Positions 14,779 through 63,973 of a stretch of DNA of 64,000 nt are shown in pieces. Where the stretch lies: the NCBI GenBank assembly GCA_024516035.1, contig CM044955.1, positions 54,835,257 through 54,899,256 of the forward strand. Reading direction: 5' to 3'. The notes beneath the pieces are model-generated. The model did no database searches. It saw nothing but the letters and a program-made list of their open reading frames with translations, and was not told the origin of the DNA. A program made the translations under genes and the position numbers. This DNA is from Bactericera cockerelli (lineage: Eukaryota; Arthropoda; Insecta; Hemiptera; Triozidae). The first letter of the stretch is position 1. The number at the start of each line of letters is the position of its first letter.

Positions 14779-14987
14779 CGCCGGGAAACCAACTTTTTCT
14801 CTCTCCTCCAGCTCAGTGTAGCAACCTGAGCCAAGTAATCCAGCGCTGAGGAACAAACCCAGGACTCTCTACTGGGGCTACCGCCGGGAAACCAACTCAG
14901 TTTTCTCTCTCCTCCAGCTCAGTATGGTGATCTGAGCCAAATAATCCAGCGCTGAGGAACACACCCAGGACTCTCTACTGGGGCTAC
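14779..14987. repeat. Duplicated stop-codon / 3'UTR boundary
   Basis: A 103-bp segment (14,779-14,881) is repeated at 14,882-14,987. Both copies begin CGCCGGGAAACCAACT and end CTCTACTGGGGCTAC. That end is the complement of the last CHD1 codons' edge including the stop (cta at 14,984-14,986). It is the one terminal-exon example of the junction-anchored duplications seen elsewhere. Confidence 0.85.

Positions 14988-63973: not shown

Follow-up and report, generated by a model that had tools for sequence, protein, structure and literature searches.

Tandem repeats that span exon-intron boundaries have been described in amphioxus genes (Adh3 and the globins) under the name 'mirages'; in the excerpted text of that report their origin is called unclear, splicing is apparently undisturbed, and they are offered as a source of introns (PMC3087553). 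PGBD5 is added to the amphioxus mirage genes in the excerpts of PMC3902484. Boundary repeats are also recorded in human duplicated genes, for which the excerpts of PMC2812944 give 162 alignments before inspection and 27 intron changes after it.

We analysed a window of 64,000 nucleotides (C1:54835257-54899256, in an assembly of 565,017,811 bases and 1032 contigs) that contains most of a CHD1 gene. The repeats of this gene share with amphioxus mirages, as excerpted, tandem units that run across an exon-intron boundary at either the 5' or the 3' side, splice signals carried by many of the copies, and unit size (tens to about 160 bp in amphioxus, comparable to those of CHD1). They differ in their insect host, in affecting 13 of 47 junctions in one gene and in reaching about 38 copies. 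Stop-codon edges are also affected here, and the excerpts of PMC3087553 and PMC3902484 make no mention of such edges for amphioxus. We class the CHD1 repeats as a variant of mirages, a named kind that the original prediction overlooked, extended to an insect and to stop codons; no insect case was among the literature matches listed, which does not imply absence. The variable internal tandem repeats of human segmental duplications share minisatellite units of about 30 bp at exon-intron boundaries. However, as excerpted they occur in recent primate paralogs, were found by paralog comparison, and lie mostly in exons or alter them, with no one gene as dense as CHD1 (PMC2812944).

Intron-creating tandem duplication likewise copies existing splice signals, whereas the copies described here sit in existing introns and 3' tails. 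In introner-like elements, related sequence is common to different introns. This feature was not seen at the junction segments of CHD1, where no self-BLAST pair linked those of two families. The claim in the original prediction that the arrays are unrelated stood for the junction segments, though transposon-like stretches in the spans of the exon o, k and h families matched between spans (35996-36077 with 47204-47292, and 47195-47232 with 52910-52947). Our preferred reading, to which we assign a probability of about 0.6, is that these are mirage-type minisatellites at coding edges, generated by exon-biased tandem duplication and shaped by a selective filter.

Duplicated edges in CHD1

CHD1 lies on the minus strand with 24 exons, whose 23 donors and 24 acceptors make up the 47 splice junctions. 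Exons were placed by tblastn with two relatives and the splice sites were set by hand, giving a single open frame of 1578 residues that is intact without any new intron. Among 120 listed of 7290 proteins, that of the psyllid Cyamophila willieti was the most similar (84.7% identity across 1072 residues), and the best structure-archive match of one exon was CHD1 chain 9ear_W. Two more CHD1 exons lie upstream of the window, with no TRF array at either; their edges were not set and they fall outside the 47. All data are one haplotype of genomic sequence.

Thirteen of the 47 junctions, in 12 of the 24 exons, were found within local duplications, comprising eight of 23 donors (exons a, g, h, i, j, s, t and v) and five of 24 acceptors (b, f, k, o and t). 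The original prediction had placed copied segments across exon edges at 11 of 24 exons. The straddling was borne out, although the exon count was not, and all 12 of the junction coordinates that it named matched our independently set splice sites. The exon b case, which it had called possible, is real, and the duplicate that it described at the stop-codon/3'UTR edge does overlap the coding sequence (CDS). Copy numbers ran from 2.1 to 37.8, in keeping with its range of 2 to about 38, whereas units measured 27 to 146 bp rather than 24 to about 120 bp. The families and neighbouring arrays were as follows.

62816..63880, minus strand: exon a donor (63804); 11-12 copies of 74/81/94-bp units with AAAGGAG/GTGAGT; the array holds 77 bp of exon a
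62471..62655, minus strand: exon b acceptor (62491); 62471-62538 (68 bp, 21 exonic) duplicated upstream at 62588-62655, 87%
61994..62319, minus strand: array after exon b; 59 bp x 5.6, starting 12 bp intronward of donor 62331; scored as not crossing
56963..58174, minus strand: exon f acceptor (56992); 53 bp x 22.9, with pyrimidine tract, AG and the exon's first 30 bp in each copy
53496..53552, minus strand: exon g donor (53536); 27 bp x 2.1, both ends TTC (by eye)
52112..52987, minus strand: exon h donor (52953); copies at 52112-52159 and 52223-52260, separated from the exon by a 13-bp-repeat element
50504..50670, minus strand: exon i donor (50641); 55 bp x 3, both ends AGC (by eye)
47804..48786, minus strand: exon j donor (48672); 32-bp unit, 24 donor copies; a 156-bp second-order duplication repeats 115 bp of exon j
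47123..47635, minus strand: exon k acceptor (47150); 61 bp (28 exonic), copy at 47576-47635, 95%
35285..39381, minus strand: exon o acceptor (35405); 146 bp (121 exonic), copy at 36083-36228, 97%
35468-35566 and 39336-39381, minus strand: shorter copies of the exon o acceptor
25817..26950, minus strand: exon s donor (26946); 30 bp x 37.8, 5 bp exonic
24579..24977, minus strand: exon t acceptor (24603); 73 bp (25 exonic), two upstream copies, 97-99%
23769..24442, minus strand: exon t donor (24434); 27-bp unit, about 21-23 copies, the most diverged array (85%)
20915..22057, minus strand: exon v donor (22034); 35-bp unit (32/35/38) x 33, 24 bp exonic
14777..14987, minus strand: CDS end; 106 bp x 2, TAG stop (14986-14984) within the copy, CDS overlap 4 bp

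TRF arrays cover a, f, g, i, j, s, the t donor and v, and self-BLAST duplicates cover the h donor, k, o and the t acceptor. BLAST alone, with at least 5-6 bases on each side of the junction, gave 11 of 47, to which g and s were added from TRF. Excluded before counting were arrays below 20 bp or of simple composition, one wholly coding array, wholly coding BLAST families, and BLAST families with more than half a copy matching more than 6 kb away. All straddling families from self-BLAST, in which within-array pairs were skipped, had direct orientation. After exon d, a 26-bp motif occurs twice (60230-60295), starting at the fifth intron base, and was scored as not crossing. Two in-frame repeats persist within CHD1 exons, in r and u; that of exon r is a 33-bp tandem repeat at 28868-28935, in a Gly-rich stretch absent from the psyllid relative.

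Comparison with chance and retention

Under founder-unit nulls, 12 of 19 local direct families (within 1 kb) straddled a junction where 1.4-3.3 were expected (P 1.7e-10 to 4.9e-6). With a 6-kb limit the figure was 12 of 18, and inverted families straddled in none of one (1 kb) and none of two (6 kb) cases. An exon-sparing null for arrays placed 1.48 on junctions against the 8 of 20 observed (P=2.7e-5). When placement was unconstrained, 4.76 of the 20 were expected and the excess was not clear (P=0.059), and base coverage showed none, as arrays occupy 17.6% of the bases in introns and take in 8 of the 47 junctions. The earlier statement that chance would rarely hit so many junctions thus held under the first two kinds of null and not under the unconstrained one. 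We prefer the exon-sparing and founder-unit nulls because each unit carries the junction, so that the founding duplication straddled it, and because the frame is intact. Unit lengths for the nulls were entered from earlier outputs, and the CHD1 P values are optimistic because the window was picked as odd. Chance acting together with this choice of window would fit the unconstrained result, the equal coverage and a P value of up to 0.15 for splice junctions alone in other genes (see below). However, it accords poorly with the strong excess under founder-unit nulls and with the replication at coding edges in blocks picked by coordinate, and we regard it as very improbable.

Family density was 4.26 per kb in the space where a unit would straddle a junction (assumed to be 47 x 60 bp), versus 0.21 per kb in CHD1 introns; the background was 0.23 per kb in the intergenic part of the window, and a 200-kb block gave 0.18 per kb. 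The similarity of these intron-only and intergenic rates is consistent with a process in which duplications arise evenly and those touching coding sequence stay recognisable longer, one copy being constant. By reasoning, however, a fixed copy slows the divergence of a pair at most about 2-fold, against an excess of about 20-fold, and the straddlers include families that are 97-99% identical, so we consider retention by itself unlikely. The survival bias put forward in the original prediction is a needed part of the explanation, but alone it predicts parity with introns.

Stop codons, other genes and the source of the duplications

Two further blocks were set by coordinate only and not chosen for repeats (C1:10000001-10200000 and C1:25000001-25050000, 250 kb in total); the GC-rich frames sent to Pfam from them were chosen by eye. 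Four genes had both Pfam and homology support (iPLA2-gamma, 7B2, a lipase and a CERT-like START-domain gene), a small number that comprises 16 exons, 30 splice junctions and two located stops. For a second gene the best match was in Diaphorina citri (66%), which together with the Cyamophila willieti match of CHD1 points to a psyllid-like source. The frame of the CERT-like gene piece is intact. Three of the 30 splice junctions, all donors, and both located stops were straddled.

Block 1, 150040-150633 (64 bp x 7.7) and 148610-148707 (46 bp x 2.1): donors of two 7B2 exons
Block 1, 117692-118600: straddled stop of iPLA2-gamma
Block 2, 20093-21053 and 6516-6915: straddled donor and straddled stop of the CERT-like gene

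Case 7c was counted by TRF only, the CERT-like donor was counted by BLAST (its TRF row ends 44 bp short), and the edges of iPLA2-gamma exon e2 are a by-eye reading. The lipase had no straddled edge; a 44-bp x 11 array begins 33 bp past its last donor. A 43-bp x 37.8 array sits inside an iPLA2-gamma intron, off any edge, and these two high-copy intronic arrays indicate that high copy number is not edge-specific. Across the four gene spans, five of 17 TRF arrays crossed a coding edge, against 0.71-1.45 expected (P 0.0004-0.010), so that the check on other genes that the original prediction had called for points in the same direction as CHD1. For splice junctions only, three were observed where 0.67-1.37 were expected (P 0.026-0.15).

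The stop codons discriminate between explanations, since a junction-specific cause predicts nothing at stops and exon-biased duplication followed by purging of coding copies predicts that they are straddled. All three located stops (CHD1, iPLA2-gamma and CERT-like) were straddled, that of CHD1 by 4 bp only, and we therefore favour duplication that is biased to exons and then filtered by selection. What the duplications follow seems to be the edge of coding sequence and not the splice site. Splicing-linked DNA damage, in which the splice junction itself is the hot spot, had been proposed in the original prediction and would agree with a junction excess that tracks neither GC nor site strength nor predicted structure, and with the involvement of donors and acceptors alike. 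It is weakened by the straddled stops, by the in-frame repeats inside exons, and by breakpoints that are not tied to the splice site, and we judge it quite unlikely. The exonic share of straddling units averaged 0.47-0.55 and was evenly spread (KS P 0.42-0.77, n=13), with no fixed breakpoint.

Slippage at a sharp GC/AT step, another of the causes first proposed, was not supported: the GC step was if anything smaller at duplicated junctions (0.16 versus 0.27 at other junctions, P=0.08, with arrays altering the intron flank), and intron sequence of similar GC was nearly free of families. Exon GC, intron GC, site strength and lengths did not separate duplicated from other CHD1 junctions, nor did hairpins, purine runs or short direct repeats. 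G4-like patterns occurred at 10 of 13 duplicated and 20 of 33 other junctions (P=0.49, in windows that include array copies). GC alone was rejected as a cause, as the non-TE intron sequence whose GC is 0.4 or higher (8.5 kb) carries one family, yet 10 of the 13 straddling units fall in that GC range. That sole family is half transposon-like and lies 12 bp from the exon b donor. At g and i, the simplest cases, three-base microhomology was seen by eye.

In the explanation that we prefer, exon-biased duplication with a selective filter, segments of about 27-146 bp would duplicate in tandem, with slippage or microhomology-mediated repair as the probable route. Founding duplications would be far commoner in exonic DNA and the sequence adjoining it than within introns or between genes; the excess is observed, and we infer its cause. 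Because purged events are uncountable, the exonic hot zone is itself a deduction. Judging from the intact frames, duplications wholly within coding exons would mostly be purged, and those straddling an exon-intron border or a stop would survive as intron or 3' tail, as one intact copy stays put. Some families would then grow into arrays of dozens of almost identical copies, with no selection acting on the spare splice signals, as suggested by array homogeneity and the ordinary decay of GT in the exon t array. We put at about even the chances that this extends genome-wide, with coding edges (stops and splice junctions) gathering tandem duplications far above background, exonic DNA a hot zone for a reason other than GC, only copies that spill out surviving, and introns and 3' tails growing by edge copying.

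If this is true, mirages are not confined to lancelets, and the rule that places them concerns coding edges, not splice sites. They would form a legible record of hidden exon-biased duplication, would add length to introns and 3' tails, and would supply spare splice signals for intron gain. They would also be natural test pieces in which splicing has to pick one among 20-38 near-identical sites.

Copied splice signals and other elements

The expectation that GT or AG is kept in nearly every copy was confirmed: substitutions in the splice dinucleotides numbered 0/64 bases in v, 0/76 in s, 0/46 in j, 0/46 in f, 0/12 in a and 5/46 in t, in an alignment that covered the a, j and t arrays in part. 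Mirages are further characterised by homogenisation within clusters that leaves out the edges, and by length instability between alleles or in soma. By substitutions, homogeneity was 98-99% in v, s, j, f and part of a, and 85% in t. None of six arrays had a significant age gradient (t P=0.07; others 0.26-0.77), and splice cores were no better conserved than the rest of the unit (combined P=0.52). Selection on the cores had been suggested by a count that was biased by the copy-finding method, and it was gone in an unbiased alignment. None of 141 alternative copies at eight junctions (the f acceptor and the donors of a, g, i, j, s, t and v) kept the CHD1 frame open to the normal stop; h is without an exact second copy. 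The extra splice sites are not under selection.

High copy number was associated with junctions in CHD1 (P=0.007), as might be expected if spare donors and acceptors aided exon definition or served as decoys or recursive sites. The v unit, with a pyrimidine tract before TAG/GTGAGT, would also suit such a role, as it resembles a dual-specific site, a concept given in the abstract of PMC10809524. Selected redundancy or regulation of this kind nevertheless seems highly doubtful, as the splice cores have no special conservation (the GT changes in t are near the array average), stop-codon arrays have no splice role, and high-copy arrays also occur away from edges. In the exon v array (20915-22057), about 31 copies each carry a pyrimidine tract, CTAAC and TAG/GTGAGT, resembling a dual-specific or recursive splice site.

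Several other elements were seen. A small LTR-type element at 36568-39337, adjoining a copy of the exon o start, has 131-bp direct repeats (99% alike) flanking an integrase-bearing frame of 831 aa (36697-39192, minus strand), whose best protein matches mostly span about 38%. Two copies of an element based on 13-bp repeats (52264-52805 and 54448-54874, about 96% alike) lie in the introns flanking exons g and h. The intron after exon v contains an inverted repeat at 16537-20373 (749 bp at 97% and 266 bp at 95%). Outside CHD1, there is an inverted repeat of about 825 bp (10247-12681, 97%) and a long frame (6283-7206) that by eye resembles a PIF1-type helicase and is probably derived from a mobile element. 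A 73-bp satellite field of alternating orientation (C1:54932555-54939256, L005:3299-10000) starts about 33 kb past the window end.
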